A stretch of DNA of 64,000 bases from Ruegeria lacuscaerulensis ITI-1157 (GTDB taxonomy: Bacteria; Pseudomonadota; Alphaproteobacteria; Rhodobacterales; Rhodobacteraceae), in the NCBI GenBank assembly GCA_000161775.1, contig GG704596.1, positions 554,631-618,630 on the forward strand. Reading direction: 5' to 3'. Made by a program: the position numbers and the translations under genes. Positions within the stretch are counted from its first letter, which is position 1. The number at the start of each line of letters is the position of its first letter. Shown here piece after piece: positions 52,274 through 64,000 of the stretch. Under the pieces are notes generated by a model. That model was given only the letters and a program-made list of their open reading frames with translations. It was not told the origin of the DNA and ran no database searches.

Positions 52274-53053
52274 TCAGACGGTGCGTTCGACCATCAGCTT
52301 CTTGATCTCGGCAATCGCCTTGGCCGGGTTCAGACCCTTGGGGCAGGTCTTGGCGCAGTTCATGATCGTGTGGCAGCGATACAGCTTGAACGGATCCTCA
52401 AGCTCATCAAGACGCTCGCCCGTGGCCTCGTCACGGCTGTCGATGATCCAGCGATAGGCATGCAGCAGCGCGGCGGGGCCAAGATAGCGGTCGCCGTTCC
52501 ACCAATAGCTGGGGCACGAGGTCGAACAGCTGGCGCACATCACACACTCATACAGGCCGTCCAGCTTCTTGCGGTCCTCGATCGACTGCCGCCACTCTTT
52601 TTCGGGCGGGTTGGTCTTGGTTTCCAGCCAGGGCATGATGCTGGCATGCTGCGCATAGAAATGCGTCAGGTCGGGGATCAGGTCCTTGACCACCGGCATG
52701 TGCGGCAGCGGATAGATCTTCACGTCGCCCTTGATCTCGTCCATGCCGTAGATGCAGGCCAAAGTGTTGATCCCGTCGATGTTCATCGCACAGGAGCCGC
52801 AGATCCCCTCGCGGCACGACCGGCGGAAGGTCAGCGTGGGGTCGATCTTGTTCTTGATGTAGATCAGCGCATCCAGAACCATCGGGCCGCAATCGTCCAT
52901 GTCGACGAAATAGGTATCGACCCGCGGGTTCTGTCCATCGTCCGGGTTCCAGCGATAGATCTGGAACTTGCGCACGTTGGTCGCCCCTTCGGGCTTGGGC
53001 CAGGTCTTGCCCGTGGTGATGCGCGAATTCTTGGGGAGGGTCAGTTGTACCAT
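52274..53053 (-). CDS. sdhB: Succinate dehydrogenase iron-sulfur subunit
   Basis: Electron-transfer subunit of complex II. The 259-residue protein has the 2Fe-2S ligands CREGICGSC with a later Cys (NTLAC), and the 4Fe-4S/3Fe-4S motifs [13 protein letters not shown] and [20 protein letters not shown] precedes the ATG. Order sdhC-sdhD-sdhA-sdhB is the usual alphaproteobacterial one. It ends with a hairpin. Confidence 0.97.
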
Positions 53054-53065
53054 GTGTTCCTCTCC

Positions 53066-54871
53066 TTAGAAGGTCCGCGCCTTGGGCGCGATCTTTTCAA
53101 GGCTGATGCCGCCCTGTTCTTCGGGCGTCAGCGGATCGACGATGACCGGGCGATAGCTCAACTCGACCGAGTTGCCCTCGACCCGCGCCACGGTGTGCAC
53201 GCGCCAGTTTTCGTCGTCGCGTTCGGGGAAATCCTCGTGCGCGTGGGCGCCGCGGGATTCCTTGCGCGCCTCGGCGCCGACGATGGTGGCCAGCGCGTTG
53301 GGCATCAGGTTGGTCAGCTCCAGCGTCTCCATCAGGTCGCTGTTCCAGACCAGACTGCGGTCGGTGACCTTCAGGTCGTTCAGCTTGGCGGCGATCGCGG
53401 TCATCTTCTCGACGCCCTGCGCCAGCGTTTCGGCGGTGCGGAACACGGCTGCGTCTTCCTGCATGGTCTTCTGCATTTCCAGCCGCAACTCGGCGGTCGG
53501 GGTCGAACCATTGGCGTTGCGCAGCGCGTCGAACCGGTCGAAGGCCTTGTCGACCGACGCCTTGTTCAGCACCGGGTTCGGCGCCTCGGGGTCCACCACC
53601 TTGCCGGCGCGGATCGCGGCGGCCCGGCCGAACACCACCAGGTCGATCAGCGAGTTCGAGCCCAGACGGTTCGCGCCGTGCACCGAGGCGCAGCCCGCCT
53701 CGCCCACGGCCATCAGGCCGGGCACCACGGCGGTGGGGTTGTCGGCGGTCGGGTTCAGCACCTCGCCCCAATAGTTGGTCGGAATGCCGCCCATGTTGTA
53801 ATGCACCGTCGGCAGAACCGGGATCGGCTCCTTGGTCACGTCGACGCCGGCAAAGATCTTGGCCGATTCCGAGATCCCCGGCAGCCGCTCGGCCAGCGCC
53901 TCGGCCGGCAGGTGCGACAGGTTCAGGTGGATGTGGTCCTTGTTCTTGCCCACGCCACGGCCTTCGCGGATCTCCATCGTCATGCAGCGGCTGACATAGT
54001 CACGCGGCGCCAGGTCCTTGTAGTGGGGCGCGTAGCGCTCCATGAACCGTTCGCCTTCCGAGTTGGTCAGATACCCGCCCTCGCCGCGCGCACCTTCGGT
54101 GATCAGACAGCCCGAGCCGTAGATGCCGGTCGGGTGGAACTGCACGAATTCCATGTCCTGCAGCGGCAGACCCGCGCGGGCCACCATGCCACCGCCGTCG
54201 CCGGTGCAGGTATGCGCCGAGGTCGCGCTGAAATAGGCGCGGCCATACCCGCCCGTGGCCAGCACCACCATCTTGGCGTTGAAGACATGCATGGTGCCGT
54301 CGTCCAGCTTCCAGCAGACGACGCCCTGGCACTGCCCATCCTCGGACATGATCAGGTCGATCGCGAAATACTCGATGTAGAATTCCGCGTTGTTCTTCAG
54401 CGACTGACCATACAGCGTGTGCAGGATGGCGTGGCCGGTCCGGTCGGCCGCGGCGCAGGTGCGCTGCACCGGCGGGCCTTCACCGAATTCGGTGGTGTGG
54501 CCGCCGAAGGGCCGTTGATAGATCTTGCCTTCCTCGGTCCGGCTGAAGGGCACGCCATAGTGCTCCAGCTCATAGACGGCCTTGGGTGCCTCGCGCGCCA
54601 GGTATTCCATCGCGTCGGTGTCACCCAGCCAGTCCGAGCCCTTGACGGTGTCGTACATGTGCCACTGCCAGTGGTCGGGGCCCATGTTCGACAGCGATGC
54701 CGCGATGCCCCCCTGCGCCGCGACGGTGTGCGAGCGAGTTGGGAAAACCTTGGTCACGCAGGCCGTGCGCAGGCCCTGCTCGGCCATGCCCAGCGTGGCC
54801 CGCAGCCCGGCCCCACCGGCGCCGACGACAACCACGTCATATTCGTGCGTTTCGTATTCGTATGCAGCCAT
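53066..54871 (-). CDS. sdhA: Succinate dehydrogenase flavoprotein subunit
   Basis: Oxidises succinate to fumarate using covalently bound FAD. The 601-residue product has [12 protein letters not shown] near residue 17, [13 protein letters not shown] with the FAD-linked His, [11 protein letters not shown] and REGRGVG of the active site. The ATG at 54871 gives the conserved [19 protein letters not shown] start; the frame is open 23 codons upstream without similarity. Twelve bases separate it from sdhB. Confidence 0.97.
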
Positions 54872-54890
54872 TTCTTTCAGCTCCGGGGTG

Positions 54891-55262
54891 TTAGAGGGCG
54901 ATGCGGGCGATGGCAAAAATGCCAACTGCGGCCGCGCCATAGGACAGACAGGTCACGAGGATGATCAGAACCTTCTCAAGCGTGCCGTGCACATAGTCCT
55001 CGATCATCACCTGCGCGCCATCGGCAAAATGCTTGAAGCCGACGGCCAGCGTCAGCGCCGCAACGATGGCCGGGAACGGGCGCGAATAATAGTCCAGCAT
55101 CACGTCATAGGGCTGGCCCAGGGTCGGCCCGAAGGTGAAGACGAACAGCGGCACGAGGATCAGCAAGGCAACCGAGCTGACCTTCATCGCCCAGAAATGC
55201 TGGGTGCCGGACTTGGCCGAGCCCAGGCCAAGGGCGCGCTTGCGGTCGGTAAGGTAACGCAT
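54891..55262 (-). CDS. sdhD: Succinate dehydrogenase membrane anchor subunit
   Basis: A 123-residue three-helix protein anchoring SdhAB and helping bind haem b and quinone. It starts [20 protein letters not shown] and ends with two helices around [17 protein letters not shown], where the His and DY residues are typical haem/quinone contacts. GGAGG seven bases upstream fixes the start at 55262. Confidence 0.93.
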
Positions 55263-55275
55263 GTCAGGCCTCCGG

Positions 55276-55662
55276 TTATGCAACGATCAAAAGGGTGACG
55301 AGGGTCAGAACGACCGATCCGATCACGACGGCCCAGCCCAGCTTGTAGGCGGTGGGCAGGTCCAGCCCGACGGCGCTGTCCCAGATCAGGTGACGGATGC
55401 CGGCCAGGGTGTGGTACCACAGCCCCCACAGCGACAGCGCCATCACCAGGTCGCCCAGCAACGAGGTGATCACAGCATTGGCAGTCGCATAGGCCTCGGG
55501 CGAGGTCGCCGCGGCCAGGAACCACCACACGATCAGCAGCGCCGCCACCAACATGGCGTTGCCGGTGATCCGCGTGAGGATCGAAGTGACAGAGGTCAAC
55601 TGTGGACGATAGATCGACAGATGCGGCGAAAGCGGGCGGTTCCCCCGATTGACATCGGCCAT
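55276..55662 (-). CDS. sdhC: Succinate dehydrogenase cytochrome b556 subunit
   Basis: A 128-residue membrane subunit with three helices. RPLSPHLSIYRPQLTSVTSI is the family signature and includes the quinone-site Ser/Arg region; the haem ligand is probably the His in WYHTLAGIRHL. It is the first gene of the operon; the 215-base leader carries three GTGATCAC palindromes. Confidence 0.96.
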   Translation of the reverse strand: MADVNRGNRPLSPHLSIYRPQLTSVTSILTRITGNAMLVAALLIVWWFLAAATSPEAYATANAVITSLLGDLVMALSLWGLWYHTLAGIRHLIWDSAVGLDLPTAYKLGWAVVIGSVVLTLVTLLIVA

Positions 55663-55744
55663 GGCGGCTCCTTTTTGGGTTGGCTACCGAAGGTTTTACT
55701 GCTTTTTACATCTCTGTCACGCGCCGCAGGTGCAAAAAAGAGCA

Positions 55745-55777: not shown

Positions 55778-55806
55778 GTGATCACGCAAAATAATCTCGT
55801 GATCAC
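55778..55806. promoter_or_regulatory. Paired GTGATCAC operator upstream of sdhC
   Basis: Two perfect GTGATCAC palindromes at 55778-55785 and 55799-55806 are separated by 13 bases (21-base repeat, two helical turns), flanked by TTTT on one side and AAA on the other. They lie 116-144 bases before the sdhC ATG. The same arrangement occurs before sucC. Binding protein unknown. Confidence 0.65.
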
Positions 55807-55855: not shown

Positions 55856-55863
55856 GTGATCAC
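55856..55863. promoter_or_regulatory. Third GTGATCAC site upstream of sdhC
   Basis: A further TGTGATCACG palindrome 57 bases beyond the pair, 15 bases from the stop codon of the VWA protein gene. It could allow DNA looping or be a leftover site. Confidence 0.5.
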
Positions 55864-55877
55864 GAATCTTTTTTCCG

Positions 55878-56540
55878 TCACTTGAACCTGGCCGTCTGAC
55901 GGGTGACTTCGCGCAGCAGCTTCTTGCGGATGCGTTCGGGATAGTCCTCGAAACCCGCAGCCGAGACCACGAAAGCGCCTTCGCCTACGATGACGTTTTC
56001 ATAGAAATAGGCGGTCAGGTCTGGCTCGCTTTCCTCGATGGCGATGGCGTTCACGGTGATCCCCTGACGGCGCAGCAGGTCGTGTATCTCGGTCGGCTCG
56101 ACGCCTTCGTTCGACACCCCGTCGCCCGAGATGTCGATCAGGCGGCGCTTGCAGTCTGGTACGTCCAGAAAACTGTTCACGGTCATTTCCAACGCCTCGC
56201 CGATCGCGGTCGAGAAGTTGCGCCACACGCGCGGATCTGTCGCCACCTGTTCCGCAAATGCGTCCACCGCGGCGAACCCGTCGATGCGGGTCCAGGGGAT
56301 GGTGATACGCTGCCGCGACGCGCCAGTCCATTGCACCAGCATCAACCGGGCCTGGCCGCGCACCAGCGCCTCGGACACGACCGGGTCGCGCAACCCGGCC
56401 GCCAGGCCATCCATCTGGATGCGGTATTCCGAACTGTCGACCGAGCCGGACACATCCACGGCCAGCGCCAGCGCCAGATCGCAGGCCGACGCCGGGCGGG
56501 CAAGACACAGCGCAGTAGCAAGGATACGCAGAAAAGACAT
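55878..56540 (-). CDS. Exported DUF1194 protein with a von Willebrand factor A domain
   Basis: A 220-residue protein with a signal peptide (about 1-19, cut after ASA) followed by a VWA fold. The MIDAS metal site is intact: DVSGS near residue 29, a Thr region (WTGASRQ) and DISGDGVSNEG. It matches DUF1194, of unknown function, probably periplasmic protein-protein contact. The ATG follows a strong hairpin directly, with no Shine-Dalgarno visible. It lies between mch and sdhC in the same direction. Confidence 0.85.
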   Translation of the reverse strand: MSFLRILATALCLARPASACDLALALAVDVSGSVDSSEYRIQMDGLAAGLRDPVVSEALVRGQARLMLVQWTGASRQRITIPWTRIDGFAAVDAFAEQVATDPRVWRNFSTAIGEALEMTVNSFLDVPDCKRRLIDISGDGVSNEGVEPTEIHDLLRRQGITVNAIAIEESEPDLTAYFYENVIVGEGAFVVSAAGFEDYPERIRKKLLREVTRQTARFK

Positions 56541-56566
56541 GGGCCGAACCTAGCACGGTTCGGCCC
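56541..56566 (-). terminator. Hairpin abutting the VWA gene start codon
   Basis: GGGCCGAACC and GGTTCGGCCC make a perfect ten-base-pair stem with a six-base loop, immediately before the ATG of the VWA gene and 36 bases after the mch stop. It may terminate the mch operon (a TCTTTT follows the ATG) or block the ribosome. Confidence 0.55.
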
Positions 56567-56601
56567 GGTCGGGATCACAAGACTGTGGGGGGCCAGCCCG
56601 C

Positions 56602-57630
56602 TCAGATCGGCATCAGCGCCCAATAGTCCAGATCCAGCAGGACGTCGGGGCTGTATTTTCCATCCGGGCCGCGCAGCGCAAAGGGCTCGCCGCCCTTGGT
56701 CGCCACCAGTCGCAACCGGATCGCACCCACGCCGGGTACGCCGGTTTCGGCCTTGTCCAACACCTCGGACCACGCCTTGATGGTGTCGCCCGCGAAACAG
56801 GGGTTGGCGTGGGCCCCGCCGTTCAGGCCGACGATCATCTGCGCATTGGCCAGCCCGTTGAACGACAGCGCGCGCGCCATCGAGATCACGTGGCCGCCAT
56901 AGATCAGCCGCCCATCGGGGCGGAAGGTCAGGTCGAAATGCACCTTGGCGGTGTTCTGCCACAGGCGGGTGGCCAGCATGTGCTCGGCCTCTTCCACGGT
57001 CACGCCGTCGACATGGTCGATGGTTTCGCCGATCTGGTAGTCTCCCCAGCGGTGCGGTTCACCGGCCAGAGCAAAGTCGTATTTGCTGAAATCCAGCCCG
57101 CTCGGCACCACGAGGTCGCCGGGCTCCAGCGCCTTTTTCAGGTCCGGCACCACGGTTTCGGGCGCCGGCGCATCGAGGTTCGATTTCCGCACCATCACCC
57201 AGCGCACGTATTCGATCACCACCTCGTCGCGCTGGTTCAGCCCGCGCGTGCGCACCCAGACCACGCCGGTCTTGCCGTTCGAGTTCTGCTTGAGGCCGAT
57301 GACCTCGGAGTCCGACCGCAGGGTGTCACCGGGATAGACCGGTTTCAACCAGCGCCCCTCGGCATAGCCCAGGTTCGCGACCGCGTTCAGCGAGATGTCG
57401 GGCACCGTCTTGCCGAACACCACATGGAACGCCGCCAGATCGTCGATCGGGCTTTGCGGCAGACCGCAGCTCCGGGCGAACTCGTCCGAGGAATAGAGCG
57501 CGTGGCGTGCGGGATAGAGCGCATGATAGAGCGCGCGCTCGCCCACCGTCACGGTGCGCGGCACCGCGTGGTGCAGCACCTGCCCGATGGAGTAATCCTC
57601 GAAAAAGCGGCCCGGATTGGTCTTTGCCAT
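56602..57630 (-). CDS. mch: Mesaconyl-CoA hydratase (2-methylmalyl-CoA dehydratase), MaoC family
   Basis: Hydrates mesaconyl-CoA to beta-methylmalyl-CoA in the ethylmalonyl-CoA pathway. The 342-residue protein carries two MaoC-like hot-dog units (about 10-150 and 185-335), beginning GRFFEDYSIGQVLHHAVPRT and including SPIDDLAAFHVVFGKTVPDISLNA. The length equals the Rhodobacter enzyme (343). Its ATG shares one base with the DUF1737 stop. Neighbouring malyl-CoA thioesterase strongly supports the call. Confidence 0.93.
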   Translation of the reverse strand: MAKTNPGRFFEDYSIGQVLHHAVPRTVTVGERALYHALYPARHALYSSDEFARSCGLPQSPIDDLAAFHVVFGKTVPDISLNAVANLGYAEGRWLKPVYPGDTLRSDSEVIGLKQNSNGKTGVVWVRTRGLNQRDEVVIEYVRWVMVRKSNLDAPAPETVVPDLKKALEPGDLVVPSGLDFSKYDFALAGEPHRWGDYQIGETIDHVDGVTVEEAEHMLATRLWQNTAKVHFDLTFRPDGRLIYGGHVISMARALSFNGLANAQMIVGLNGGAHANPCFAGDTIKAWSEVLDKAETGVPGVGAIRLRLVATKGGEPFALRGPDGKYSPDVLLDLDYWALMPI

Positions 57631-57836
57631 TACTGCTGTCCCAGTTTCATGTCAGGAGAATAATCGGCCGCGACCTCCTTGGTCACGGCCTGCGCACAGC
57701 GCATTTTGTTGGTGGACGGGTCGAACGCATAGGCCGGAGAGCCGTGCAGCTCCCACCCTTTGGCCAGCGCCTCGGACACCTTGTGGCAAAAGTCCAAGGT
57801 GTCCTCTTCGGTCAGCAGTCGATAAAGTTTCGCCAT
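57630..57836 (-). CDS. DUF1737 small protein
   Basis: A 68-residue protein starting MAKLYRLLTEEDTLDFCHKV, with KGWELHGSP in the middle, matching DUF1737, a family of short proteins of unknown function. ATG at 57836 has AGGTGA upstream. It is translationally coupled to mch (TAATG) and lies 12 bases after nnrU, so it is part of the pathway operon; a role in acyl-CoA handling is only a guess. Confidence 0.85.
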   Translation of the reverse strand: MAKLYRLLTEEDTLDFCHKVSEALAKGWELHGSPAYAFDPSTNKMRCAQAVTKEVAADYSPDMKLGQQ

Positions 57837-57848
57837 CACATCACCTGC

Positions 57849-58403
57849 CTAGCCCGGGAACGGAGACGGGCCGACCAGCCCGTGAATGTAGCCGATGATG
57901 CCCAGCAGCACGATCGAGGCCACGAAGAACATCGCGTCCTTGCCCAGCGTTCCGGGCTCGCCCGGGGTCCAGTCGGGCTCGGACTTGTTGATCACGATCA
58001 CTTCGACCACGGCCCAGGCCAACAGGCCACCGAACAGGATGATCGACGCCAGATCACCATTGACCAGCAGATGCGCAAAAGCCCAGAGCTTGAACCCGCC
58101 CAGCATCGGGTGACGCACCTTGTTCAGCAGTCGACCCTTGGTTCCGGCCGGGCTCATAAGCCAGATGGCGATCAGCACCAGCAGGTTGTTGATGTGGATC
58201 ATGAAGCTGGGCGGTGCCCAGACATGGATGAAATCGGTCATGCGATAGCCGAAGATCATCAGCAGGATCGACACGACCAGCGCGCCCGCGACGGCGCCCT
58301 TTCCGGCATCGCCCATGGCCGCGCGGCGCGCGGGCATCAGACGTTTGAACAGATGTGCGAACGCCCAAAGCGCCACACCGAGAATAAGAAGAACGAAGCC
58401 CAT
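57849..58403 (-). CDS. NnrU family membrane protein
   Basis: A 184-residue polytopic protein with about five helices, starting MGFVLLILGVALWAFAHLFKR and containing KVRHPMLGGFKLWAFAHLL, the conserved NnrU core with its histidines. NnrU was named from denitrification loci, and a plant homologue (Z-ISO) is a haem-dependent isomerase. No denitrification gene is near; it sits between malyl-CoA thioesterase and mch, six bases from the former. Confidence 0.9.
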   Translation of the reverse strand: MGFVLLILGVALWAFAHLFKRLMPARRAAMGDAGKGAVAGALVVSILLMIFGYRMTDFIHVWAPPSFMIHINNLLVLIAIWLMSPAGTKGRLLNKVRHPMLGGFKLWAFAHLLVNGDLASIILFGGLLAWAVVEVIVINKSEPDWTPGEPGTLGKDAMFFVASIVLLGIIGYIHGLVGPSPFPG

Positions 58404-58409
58404 GCTGGC

Positions 58410-59267
58410 TTACCCCGCTTGCAAAGCTGATATCGCCTCTGCTTTTGCCAGAATTTCGCGGGCAGTTACAACGTGCAGGTTTTCCACGATCTTGCCATCG
58501 ACCACGGCAACGCCCTGCCCTTGGGCCTGAACCTCTTCGAAGGCGGCGATCTGGCGGCGGGCCAGGTCGATCTCGGCCTCGGAAGGGGCGAAGGCGGTGT
58601 TGGCGGTCTCGATCTGCGCGGGGTGGATCAGGGTCTTGCCGTCAAAGCCCATGTCGCGGCCCTGCGCGCATTCAGCGGCCAGACCTTCGGTATCCTTGAA
58701 GGCGTTGTAGACGCCGTCGACGATCACCAGCCCCTCGGCCTTGGCGGCCAGCAGGCACAGGCCCAGCGAAGTCATCAGCGGCAGGCGGTCGGGGCGGAAG
58801 CGGGTCTGAAGCTCTTTCGCCAGATCGTTGGTGCCCATGACAAAGCCCGCCATCAGCGGGTGCGCCGCGATCTCGGCCGCGTTCAGCATCCCGCGCGGGG
58901 TCTCCATCATCGCCCAGATCGGAAGGTCGCCGGTGATCGCGGCCAGCGCATCCACGTCGGCGGCCGAGTTGACCTTGGGCAGCAGCACCACGTCGGCATC
59001 CATCTCGCGCACGGCCTCGGCATCGGCGCGGCCCCAAGGGGTGTCGAGACCGTTGATTCGCACGATCTTGACGCGCGGACCATAACCGCCCGTCACCAGC
59101 GCGGCCTTGAGCGTTTCGCGCGCGTTCTCTTTTTCATCGGCGGCGACGGCATCTTCGAGGTCAAAGATGATGGCATCGACCGGCAGCGTGCGCGCCTTGT
59201 CGAGCGCCCGCTCCTTGGAGCCGGGGATATACAAAACGGATCGGTAGGGGCGCTGGCGCGGGTCCAT
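58410..59267 (-). CDS. mcl2: (3S)-malyl-CoA thioesterase (Mcl2-type, CitE-like lyase family)
   Basis: Hydrolyses (3S)-malyl-CoA to malate and CoA at the end of the ethylmalonyl-CoA pathway. The 285-residue TIM-barrel protein starts MDPRQRPYRSVLYIPGSKER and has the metal/substrate motifs IFDLEDAVA, VRINGLDTPWG and MMETPRGML. The short length and the PYRSVLYIPG start fit Mcl2 rather than the roughly 318-residue Mcl1 lyase. GAGAGG precedes the ATG; the open frame 111 codons upstream is not coding. First gene of mcl2-nnrU-DUF1737-mch. Confidence 0.88.
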   Translation of the reverse strand: MDPRQRPYRSVLYIPGSKERALDKARTLPVDAIIFDLEDAVAADEKENARETLKAALVTGGYGPRVKIVRINGLDTPWGRADAEAVREMDADVVLLPKVNSAADVDALAAITGDLPIWAMMETPRGMLNAAEIAAHPLMAGFVMGTNDLAKELQTRFRPDRLPLMTSLGLCLLAAKAEGLVIVDGVYNAFKDTEGLAAECAQGRDMGFDGKTLIHPAQIETANTAFAPSEAEIDLARRQIAAFEEVQAQGQGVAVVDGKIVENLHVVTAREILAKAEAISALQAG

Positions 59268-59435
59268 GGGAACCTCTCGTTGAAATAAAGTTGCGCAGAA
59301 TGGGGCATTTTTTGCCGGAAACTTCAAGGCCAAAATCGCCGCATTGCAGCATGTGACGCAACGCGCGGTGGCTTTACCGCATTTGCAGCGGGTTCCGGCA
59401 GCCTTGATCCCATCAACAGGCAAAGGGGGCCGGAG

Positions 59436-59741
59436 ATGAATCAGTGGTTGTTTCAGATGACGATGGGGCTGGGCATCATGGTGCTGGCGGCGCAGCAGGT
59501 ACAGGCGCAAACACCGAACTGTGCGCCCCGGCCGGACGTGCTGCAACGGCTGGCCGAGACCTATGGCGAGACCCGGCGCGGCATCGGCATGGCGCGGCAA
59601 GGTACGGTCATGGAGGTCTTTGCCTCGGACGAAACCGGCACTTGGACGATCATCGTGACACTGCCCAACGGGTTGACCTGTCTGGTGGCTGCGGGCGAGG
59701 CCTATGAGACGCTGGCCGAGGCGCTGCCGCCGAACACCTGA
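59436..59741 (+). CDS. Small exported protein of unknown function
   Basis: A 101-residue protein with a signal peptide (about 1-24, ending VQAQ) and two Cys (NCAPRP near 28, LTCLVAAG near 81) that could form a periplasmic disulfide. RQGTVMEVFASDETGTWTII suggests a beta hairpin. GGGGGCCGGAG precedes the ATG. Similar short proteins occur in related genomes as hypotheticals. It converges on the TauE gene three bases away. Confidence 0.75.
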   Translation: MNQWLFQMTMGLGIMVLAAQQVQAQTPNCAPRPDVLQRLAETYGETRRGIGMARQGTVMEVFASDETGTWTIIVTLPNGLTCLVAAGEAYETLAEALPPNT

Positions 59742-59744
59742 GCG

Positions 59745-60500
59745 TCAGGTCAGCGCGTCCCAGATCAGTTTTGACCCGGTCAGGGTCAGCAGCACATAGG
59801 CGATGCCGAAGAACAGCCGCTCGGACATCATCCAATGGGCGCGCACGCCCAGCCAGGCGCCGAGGATGGCAAAGGGGGTCAGCAGCAGGTCGGCCCAGGC
59901 GGTCTGCAGGGTGAACATGCCCAGATAGGCATAGGGGACAAACTTGGCGATATTGATGACCCAAAAGACCAGCACGGTGGTGGCCTGGAACTCGGTTTTC
60001 GTCAGGCGCTGGGACAGCAGGTAGACGGCGGCGGGCGGGCCGCCGGCATGGCTGACGAAGCTGGTGAACCCGGCGACCAGCCCCGCGAACAGCCCGGCCG
60101 GGGGCGGCAGGCGGTTGGCGAAACCGCGCACCCAGCCGCGGGTTTGGGCGATGTGCCAGATCACGAAGCCCACCGAGATGCCCCCGATCAGCAGGCGCAG
60201 CAGGTCTTCGTCGGTCGCCCGATAGAGCCACGCGCCCAGCACCACGCCCGGCACCGCCCCCAGCATCAGCAGCCGCGCGTCGGGCCAGCTCCACCGTTTC
60301 CAGTAGGGGCGCAGGGTGGCCAGGTCGATCACCATCAGGATCGGCAACATCAGCGCCAGCGCCTGCCCCGGATCAAGGATCAACGCCAGAATCGACGACG
60401 ACGCAAAGGCCACGCCCGAGCCGAAGCCGCCCTTGGAAATGCCCGCAAAGATCACGGCCGGGATCGCCACGGCAAAAAACATCAGGTTCAATTCAACCAT
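59745..60500 (-). CDS. TauE/SafE (TSUP) family permease, third copy in the window
   Basis: A 251-residue membrane protein of about eight helices. GISKGGFGSGVAF near residue 20 and VAGFTSFVSHAGGPPAAVYL near 142 are the duplicated TSUP motifs. It belongs to a different branch from the tandem pair at 37.9-39.9 kb (shorter, no long central loop). Substrate unknown; sulfite or organic acid export is the family norm. It is divergent from mdh. Confidence 0.9.
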   Translation of the reverse strand: MVELNLMFFAVAIPAVIFAGISKGGFGSGVAFASSSILALILDPGQALALMLPILMVIDLATLRPYWKRWSWPDARLLMLGAVPGVVLGAWLYRATDEDLLRLLIGGISVGFVIWHIAQTRGWVRGFANRLPPPAGLFAGLVAGFTSFVSHAGGPPAAVYLLSQRLTKTEFQATTVLVFWVINIAKFVPYAYLGMFTLQTAWADLLLTPFAILGAWLGVRAHWMMSERLFFGIAYVLLTLTGSKLIWDALT

Positions 60501-60615
60501 GCGGCGGCCCCGAAACGGCTTGTCCTGTGGGTGGTTTAGCGCAACCGGCGGGGGGCAGGCAAACGGTATGCGGTCGCATGCCGCGCTGCAGAACCCTTGC
60601 GCAACGGCGTTTTAG

Positions 60616-61623
<1,008 letters not shown>

Positions 61624-61675
61624 AACCCGGCTCGGGTTACCGGGGCTCCGGTGACCCTGTCAAAGACGCGATCGT

Positions 61676-61706
61676 CGCCCCGCTGGTGCCCACCGGCGGG
61701 GCGTTT
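61676..61706 (+). terminator. Intrinsic terminator of mdh
   Basis: CGCCCCGC pairs perfectly with GCGGGGCG, with an inner GGT/ACC pairing, followed by TTT. Two smaller hairpins (61624-61638 and 61639-61652) precede it directly after the stop codon. Confidence 0.75.
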
Positions 61707-61721
61707 CGATTGACGGGACGG

Positions 61722-62726
61722 TCAGCGAAACATCCCCAGCCAACGCGCCACCAGCAGCAGCACCCCTCCCAGGGCGACCAGCAGTACACAAACAATCCAG
61801 AAGGCATTCGGATCGTCGGCCCCGGGGATGCCGCCGACGTTGATCCCCAGCACGCCGGCCACCAGACCCAGCGGCAGAAATACGGCGCTGACCACTGACA
61901 ACACCAGCATACGGCTGTTCATGCGTTCGGCACGCTCATCCATCAATTGTTCGTGGATGATCTGAACCCGTTCGCGCACGGCCGCCAGATCTTCGCCAAT
62001 GCGATAGATGCGCTCCGAGGCTTCGCGCAACCGCGACCGGTCATGGGGCTGCAGCCAGGGCAAATCCTCGATCTCGAGCGTCGTCAGGGCATCGCGCTGC
62101 GGCACCAGGTACCGTCGCAGAACGATGGATGACCTGCGGATCGCCGCCAGCTCGGCCCGGGAAATCTCGGCGTTCGGCTCCAACAGCAACTCCTCGAGGT
62201 CATCCACGCGTTCGTTCAGATCGGTGATGGCGGGCTCGGCCCGGTCGGCCAACCGCAAGGCCAGCCGTGCCACGAAGTCACCCGGCGATTTCGGGGCCTG
62301 CCCGCGGTCGATTGCCGCCAGCATGTCCGCAACCGCATCCAGTGGACGGCGCCAGACACCGATGATCTTTGTTTCCGTCAGCCACAGCCGGACCGAGATC
62401 ATGTCCTCGGGCGGCTGCCCCTCAAACAGGTTCACGCCCCTCAAGTTAAGAATGACGCCGTCGCCATGCACGGTGCAACGCGGCCGGGTTTCGCCGGCCA
62501 TCAGCGCATCGATCACGAACTCATCCAGCCCGGCGGTACGGAGCAGCGCAACCGTGCCTTCTCCTTCAAGGCGCAGGTGCTGCCAGGCAAACTGGCCATC
62601 CGTACCGCTGGGTGACCAGGCGGCAAAGGCATCGGCATCCAACGGCTGCGCGTTCCCGGATCCATCGAAGATCATGGTCAGCGTGTCGGGAAGGGAAGGA
62701 GTGGTCACTGTCATCCGCGCAGTCAT
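61722..62726 (-). CDS. zntB: CorA/ZntB family divalent cation transporter
   Basis: A 334-residue inner-membrane transporter. A long cytoplasmic region (about 1-265) ends in two membrane helices with the pore signature GINVGGIPG in place of CorA's GMN, the form seen in ZntB, which moves Zn2+. The C-terminus is basic (ARWLGMFR). Zinc uptake versus efflux cannot be decided here. It converges on mdh; its start is 357 bases from sucC. Confidence 0.9.
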   Translation of the reverse strand: MTARMTVTTPSLPDTLTMIFDGSGNAQPLDADAFAAWSPSGTDGQFAWQHLRLEGEGTVALLRTAGLDEFVIDALMAGETRPRCTVHGDGVILNLRGVNLFEGQPPEDMISVRLWLTETKIIGVWRRPLDAVADMLAAIDRGQAPKSPGDFVARLALRLADRAEPAITDLNERVDDLEELLLEPNAEISRAELAAIRRSSIVLRRYLVPQRDALTTLEIEDLPWLQPHDRSRLREASERIYRIGEDLAAVRERVQIIHEQLMDERAERMNSRMLVLSVVSAVFLPLGLVAGVLGINVGGIPGADDPNAFWIVCVLLVALGGVLLLVARWLGMFR

Positions 62727-63083
62727 TTTGTTCTTCGGCCCAAATATCTTGACGGATCAAGACAGGTCCGGACAGGTTAGCGGCCAAGCGCGCCAGCGCC
62801 AAGTCATTCGATTTCGGCGAGGCCCGAAACTCCACCGCGGCCCAAGCCAGTACTGTTGGCGCAAACGGCGCTGAAAGCTGCTCTTGAATGTATTTTTGCG
62901 ACAGATTCTCGGCGGGTCGAATCAACATCAACCAACCCACATTTTGTGATCACACCCTAAAATGCCGTGATCACAAAAGCGGAAAATCCTCGGCAAAAAC
63001 CTTCTTCCGGTAAGAAAACCCTTTAATTTTGCCCGTTAGACACCCCTATAACGATCCAATCGTAGTCAGACGGGACAGTTTCG
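62727..63083. other. 357-base zntB/sucC divergent intergenic region
   Basis: No gene is recognised. A leftward open frame of 124 codons covers part of it but has no family resemblance and no ribosome site. It contains the paired GTGATCAC operator at 62946-62974 and a TATAAC -10-like hexamer at 63047, 37 bases before the sucC ATG, which fits a sucC promoter reached by an activator about 75-105 bases upstream. Confidence 0.6.
62946..62974. promoter_or_regulatory. Paired GTGATCAC operator upstream of sucC
   Basis: Perfect GTGATCAC palindromes at 62946-62953 and 62967-62974, 13 bases apart, with TTTT before and AAAA after, 110-138 bases before the sucC ATG. Spacing, flanks and distance reproduce the sdhC arrangement almost exactly. 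Confidence 0.65.
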
Positions 63084-64000
63084 ATGAACATTCACGAATA
63101 TCAGGCCAAGGCCCTTCTTCGCAGCTACGGCGCGCCGGTTTCGGACGGCCGCGCGGTTCTGCGCGCGGAAGAGGCGAAAACCGCAGCCGGCGAACTGGAC
63201 GGCCCGCTTTGGGTGGTCAAGGCGCAGATCCACGCAGGGGGCCGCGGCAAGGGGCATTTCAAGGAACCCGACGCCGGCGACAAGGGCGGCGTGCGTCTGA
63301 CCAAATCGGTGGAGGAAGCCGCCGAAGAAGCCAAGAAGATGCTGGGCCGCACGCTGGTCACGCACCAGACCGGCCCCGAAGGCAAGCAGGTCAACCGCGT
63401 GTATATCGAGGCCGGATCGGGCATCGAGCGCGAGCTGTACCTGGCCCTGCTGGTCGATCGTCAGACTAGCCGCATCTCGTTCGTGTGCTCGACCGAAGGC
63501 GGCATGGACATCGAGGAAGTGGCCGCCGCGACGCCCGAGAAAATCCTGTCTTTCTCGGTTGACCCGGCCACCGGCTATCAGCCGTTCCATGGCCGCCGCA
63601 TCGCCTTCTCGCTGGGTCTGGAAGGCGCGCAGGTCAAGCAATGCGTGCGCCTGATGGGCATCTTGTACAAGGCCTTCGTCGAGAAGGACATGGAGATGCT
63701 GGAGATCAACCCGCTGATCGTGGCCGAAGGCGGCGACCTCAAGGTGCTGGACGCCAAGCTGAGCTTTGACGGCAACGCGATCTATCGCCACCCCGACATC
63801 GCCGAGCTGCGCGACACCACCGAGGAAGACCCCAAGGAGCTGGAAGCCAGCAAATACGACCTGAACTACATCGCGCTGGATGGCGAGATCGGCTGCATGG
63901 TCAACGGCGCGGGCCTGGCGATGGCGACGATGGACATCATCAAGCTGTATGGAGCCGAGCCGGCCAACTTCCTGGACGTGGGCGGCGGCGCCACCAAAGA
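63084..64000 (+). CDS. sucC: Succinate-CoA ligase (ADP-forming) beta subunit, 3' end beyond window
   Basis: With SucD it converts succinyl-CoA to succinate with substrate-level phosphorylation. The first 305 residues are present of about 397. [20 protein letters not shown] is the standard start; the ATP-grasp region has [16 protein letters not shown] near residue 45 and LEINPLIV near 208 for metal binding, and the segment [13 protein letters not shown] near 272 begins the CoA-ligase-fold part. The expected downstream genes (sucD, sucA) lie outside. Confidence 0.97.

Follow-up and report, generated by a model that had tools for sequence, protein, structure and literature searches.

The 64,000-nucleotide stretch of Ruegeria lacuscaerulensis ITI-1157 considered here (contig GG704596.1; hereafter the window) carries a paired palindrome, GTGATCAC-N13-GTGATCAC, ahead of two operons of the tricarboxylic acid (TCA) cycle, sdh and suc, and this pair is very probably the operator of AkgR, a dimeric regulator of the GntR-FCD type. 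The initial annotation of this DNA had described two perfect palindromes with this spacing before sdhC and the same paired design before sucC, and both are found as described; it had known of no named regulator for the motif, a point that has to be corrected, given that a named one exists in AkgR, of the GntR family. A regulator has been named in this way for a motif that was spotted in sequence alone. The sites are as follows:

55778–55806, no strand: putative AkgR operator ahead of the sdh operon, formed by the pair GTGATCAC-N13-GTGATCAC, its outer flanks rich in T and in A
55778–55785, no strand: sdh-proximal palindrome, centre at about −97 relative to the inferred transcription start
55799–55806, no strand: sdh-distal palindrome, centre at about −118, 21 base pairs (bp), or two turns, from the proximal palindrome
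55856–55863, no strand: third, single GTGATCAC, directly after the stop of the DUF1194 gene
62946–62974, no strand: putative AkgR operator ahead of the suc operon, formed by the pair GTGATCAC-N13-GTGATCAC

The palindrome pair and its probable regulator

Each operator is formed by two copies of an 8-base palindrome, GTGATCAC, two DNA turns apart, and lies 115 bp from the start codon of sdhC (ATG at 55662, minus strand) or 109 bp from that of sucC (ATG at 63084, plus strand). Dinucleotide shuffles predict 1.1 copies of GTGATCAC for the window, which holds 11; the only intergenic ones are the five copies of the operator regions, and a copy at 55466 lies within sdhC. The whole genome (3.52 Mb) holds 92 copies, most of them single, and exactly two perfect N13 pairs, those before the sdh and suc operons. 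Only three loci of the genome contain the extended half TTGTGATCAC, namely the sdh pair, the suc pair and akgR. The third copy near sdh, which had been noted along with the pair, does exist, but it is not a conserved feature: an extra copy lies within reach in 6 of 31 sdhC promoters, at scattered distances, and because such copies are not conserved the one at 55856 is probably incidental or auxiliary.

The AkgR regulon of Rhodobacter (Cereibacter) sphaeroides was reportedly described by Imam, Noguera and Donohue in 2015. The published AkgR motif contains GTGATCAC, and AkgR is termed a transcriptional activator in the available part of the source (PMC6365646). In another source, the targets predicted for RSP_0981, a GntR regulator of R. 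sphaeroides, are sucCD (succinyl-CoA synthetase), sdh (succinate dehydrogenase) and odh (2-oxoglutarate dehydrogenase) (PMC4344238). From the matching family, targets and locus, together with the title of the 2015 paper, we infer that RSP_0981 is AkgR.

The R. lacuscaerulensis genome has eight FCD-type regulators; one of them, the akgR ortholog (L048:1249-1896), encodes a GntR-FCD protein of 215 amino acids and has GTGATCAC 9 bp ahead of its ATG. This protein is 77% identical to the ortholog in genome G051, which is R. sphaeroides 2.4.1 (100% identity to its plasmid records), and both contain the GntR and FCD domains. In R. sphaeroides 2.4.1 the ortholog directly follows the sdh genes, and an N13 pair stands ahead of suc and of sdh, whereas in R. 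lacuscaerulensis akgR is placed about 1.1 Mb from sdh, and an operator site adjoins its start codon. Four residues of the FCD domain of the L048 protein (N136, H140, H183 and D205) are invariant in 14 AkgR orthologs; judging by resemblance, they may be the counterparts of the metal and ligand site in FCD regulators, where two of the usual residues would differ. The effector of AkgR is probably a carboxylic acid.

The regulator and the pair also travel together. In a family sample of 149 genomes, nearly one per Rhodobacteraceae genus, searched for two copies of GTGATCAC at N3 to N33 and for AkgR orthologs at an identity of at least 48%, the two occur together in 130 genera and are both absent from 13; three genera have only the ortholog and three only the pair. 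As for the genera with an ortholog and no exact pair, G040 has pairs with one mismatch, one of which was read and lies before sucC, and the other two are incomplete assemblies. A copy of GTGATCAC is located at most 60 bp upstream of the start, usually at about 10 bp, in 109 of 110 akgR ortholog loci, which come from two collections and may count a few genomes twice. Four traits that mark the AkgR regulon are seen here: GTGATCAC in the site, suc and sdh (and odh) as targets, an encoded ortholog, and co-occurrence of site and regulator.

Position relative to the promoters and a possible mechanism

The pair has the same form in the 31 sdhC and 39 sucC promoters that were aligned, and the T-rich and A-rich outer flanks pointed out by the initial annotation are real and conserved among them. 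A scan with the sigma-70 consensus found nothing useful; aligned at the pair, the 31 sdhC promoters share a conserved core, GTGACA-N16-TATNAN. The elements deduced for the two promoters of the window are these:

55715–55720, minus strand: inferred −35 of the sdhC promoter, GTGACA, 57 bp beyond the pair, in the conserved core of sdhC promoters
55693–55698, minus strand: inferred −10 of the sdhC promoter, TAAAAC, 16 bp past the −35
63047–63052, plus strand: tentative −10 of the suc promoter, TATAAC, the accompanying −35 not being clear

With the core at 55720–55715 and 55698–55693, the sdh palindromes would therefore be centred at about −97 and −118, and TATAAC at 63047 suggests, less firmly, centres of about −88 and −109 for suc. 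The pair would thus be situated some 90–120 bp upstream of the transcription start and in phase with the promoter, at the kind of distance that had been called typical of an activator. The distance from pair to −35 is 57–60 bp in 22 of the 26 sdhC promoters scored, and the remaining four (48, 68, 71 and 80 bp) are displaced by roughly one or two turns of the helix. Such a conserved distance, and exceptions of that kind, suggest face-specific activation from about −97 and −118. From the pair to the promoter, the A/T content varies with a period of 10 bp, its amplitude being 5.4 for both genes against at most 1.3 in shuffles, and the periodicity is much weaker on the far side of the pair; this fits two activator dimers that share one face and contact the polymerase by DNA bending.

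A mechanism can be proposed in which one AkgR dimer would bind each GTGATCAC (in its extended form, TTTGTGATCACAAA), so that two dimers would sit 21 bp apart on the same DNA face. From some 90–120 bp upstream, these dimers would aid RNA polymerase at the weak, sigma-70-type promoters of sdh and suc, and the phased A/T tracts from operator to promoter would bend the DNA so that contact is possible. The two operons would be switched together, and with them consecutive TCA steps, from 2-oxoglutarate to fumarate. The palindrome of akgR stands singly beside the start codon, which suggests autorepression, by which AkgR would limit its own synthesis. Whether all of this amounts to a dedicated two-dimer device, with two-turn sites, phased A/T tracts and whole-turn shifts only, that activates consecutive TCA operons and represses akgR from a single site, seems to us evenly balanced. 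The regulon may comprise as few as three loci in the R. lacuscaerulensis genome. In class I activation by CRP from distal sites, a dimer occupies the polymerase face at roughly −90 to −110, and changes of distance by whole turns are tolerated; the proposed arrangement resembles it in having a distal dimer on that face and distances that change by whole helical turns, and differs from it in protein family, in site and in being a pair of sites held two turns apart.

GntR regulators are often repressors, and the single akgR site, adjoining the start codon, has a position that would suit one. It is conceivable, then, that AkgR binds the pair to repress sdh and suc and is released by an effector, yet this is improbable: some 57 bp separate the end of the sdh pair from the inferred −35, a distance upstream that is too great for simple blocking, the pair holds helical phase with the promoter, and AkgR is termed an activator in the part of the source cited above (PMC6365646).

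Some observations weigh against AkgR acting through the pair as an activator. In the stretch read in R. sphaeroides, no exact site was found close before its own akgR start, and three genomes (G019, G096 and G114) have pairs and no ortholog at the identity threshold of at least 48%. The Fisher P for co-occurrence (2e-13) overstates the evidence, the genera being related, and the pattern is nonetheless clear. The aligned promoters were drawn from pair-bearing loci, and they describe the form of the pair and not its frequency. Promoter positions derive from sequence conservation and are less clear for suc; binding and activation in R. lacuscaerulensis, as well as cooperativity, bending and autorepression, are predictions from the sequence.

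Conservation of the pair in Rhodobacteraceae

A pair at N3 to N33 is present in 133 of the 149 genera, mostly twice in a genome, and none results when the same genomes are searched with the reversed control pattern. Among the 75 places listed, the spacing is N13 in 64, N12 in four and another value in seven; in 68 of them, then, the two sites have the one-face, two-turn spacing that had been proposed. The N12 and N13 pairs read in the family precede sdhC or sucC with two exceptions, fumC and odhA, which are TCA genes as well, so the idea of an operator shared by sdh and suc holds. The refuting outcome named by the initial annotation, a pair missing from the sdh and suc promoters of relatives or just as frequent at other places, does not apply. 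A two-turn operator through which succinyl-CoA synthetase and succinate dehydrogenase are jointly controlled would accordingly be near-universal in Rhodobacteraceae, a dominant marine family.

As for genera that have a single intact pair, a further ten cases with a matched gene were read and the pair is at sucC in each of them; the sdh pair is therefore the one that decays. The pair ahead of fumC (N13; L101:1501-1529, genome G042) is found in one genus and takes the presumed regulon one TCA step further; another genus has an N13 pair between mdh and odhA (L255:1501-1529, genome G136). Both are consistent with further targets of AkgR. In the AT-rich genome G136, an N23 pair (31 bp, three turns) also stands ahead of a TauE/SafE-family gene (L266:1043-1081).

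Other regulators of central metabolism, whether CceR, a protein of the CRP/FNR type, NtrC or an unnamed one, might own the palindromes, and sdh of R. sphaeroides is indeed a predicted target of CceR (RSP_1663) and NtrC too, according to PMC4344238. In the sdh and suc intergenic regions there is, however, no match to the CceR operator ([AGT]GTT-N6-8-AAC[ACT], or GTT-N6-8-AAC) nor to that of CRP/FNR (TGTGA-N6-TCACA or TTGAT-N4-ATCAA), which bears out the initial exclusion of CRP; in relatives, the CceR consensus occurs in 2 of 31 sdhC and 4 of 39 sucC promoters. The palindrome tracks the GntR gene, both in its presence and at that gene's own start, and ownership by any of these other regulators is very unlikely. 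Chance or codon-driven recurrence of GTGATCAC, which the single state of most genomic copies and the coding look of the window copies outside the operators could have favoured, is already refuted by conservation: the 133 genera retain the pair against none for the reversed pattern, and the genome has two perfect pairs, each ahead of a TCA operon, against about 0.0024 expected genome-wide at one fixed spacing (P for at least two pairs, about 3e-6).

Of 387 genomes drawn from across the class, only 12 have a pair at N11 to N15, and six of these belong to Rhodobacteraceae; few pairs lie outside the family, and the pair is therefore essentially a Rhodobacteraceae trait. The pairs outside it are rare and of mixed kind, and some look coding. 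One of them, an N13 GTGATCAC pair (L125:992-1020), directly precedes a different GntR-FCD gene, and the paired palindrome may on this account be wider among FCD regulators. A second genomic pair, with 42-bp spacing (L097:1060-1109; G000:C1:765559-765608), looks unrelated: it is flanked by a TetR-type gene and the divergent gene next to that, one of its copies sits inside a longer repeat, GAGTGATCACTC, and it looks like a TetR operator.

Related systems and neighbouring genes

The regulator, its core motif and its targets are already known from R. sphaeroides. The two-turn pair, the way it is phased to the promoter, how it contrasts with the lone akgR site and the near-universal spread in the family were not found in the literature examined, which excludes the 2015 AkgR paper, where part of this may already be contained. 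Face-specific activation by a GntR-FCD protein could readily be tested by comparison, given the constant spacing, the one-turn shifts that occur in nature and the presumably autoregulated gene with its single site.

The closest solved structure by sequence profile is that of McbR (YncC; PDB 4p9f; E 5e-22), also a GntR-FCD protein, which has a different regulon and is a structural relative only. PS417_07240 of Pseudomonas simiae, a GntR regulator of a deoxyribonate cluster, has a GTGATCAC palindrome 40–47 bp ahead of its own gene and is 32% identical to AkgR; unlike AkgR, it serves a local catabolic cluster, and a two-site design is not reported in the available part of the source (PMC6365646).

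The genes presumably controlled from the two operators are placed in the window as follows:

55276–55662, minus strand: sdhC, head of the sdhCDAB operon (PF01127)
54891–55283, minus strand: sdhD (Pfam)
53066–54940, minus strand: sdhA (Pfam)
52274–53053, minus strand: sdhB (Pfam); sdhD, sdhA and sdhB together span 52274–55283
63084–64000, plus strand: sucC, start of the suc operon, which continues beyond the window (sequence and homology to the sucC of relatives)

Between sdh and suc (55878–62726) lie genes for a DUF1194 protein, a MaoC protein resembling mesaconyl-CoA hydratase, a lyase of the HpcH/HpaI type, a TauE/SafE transporter and a CorA transporter. In R. sphaeroides, too, the genes of the hydratase-like and TauE proteins have been kept between suc and sdh.
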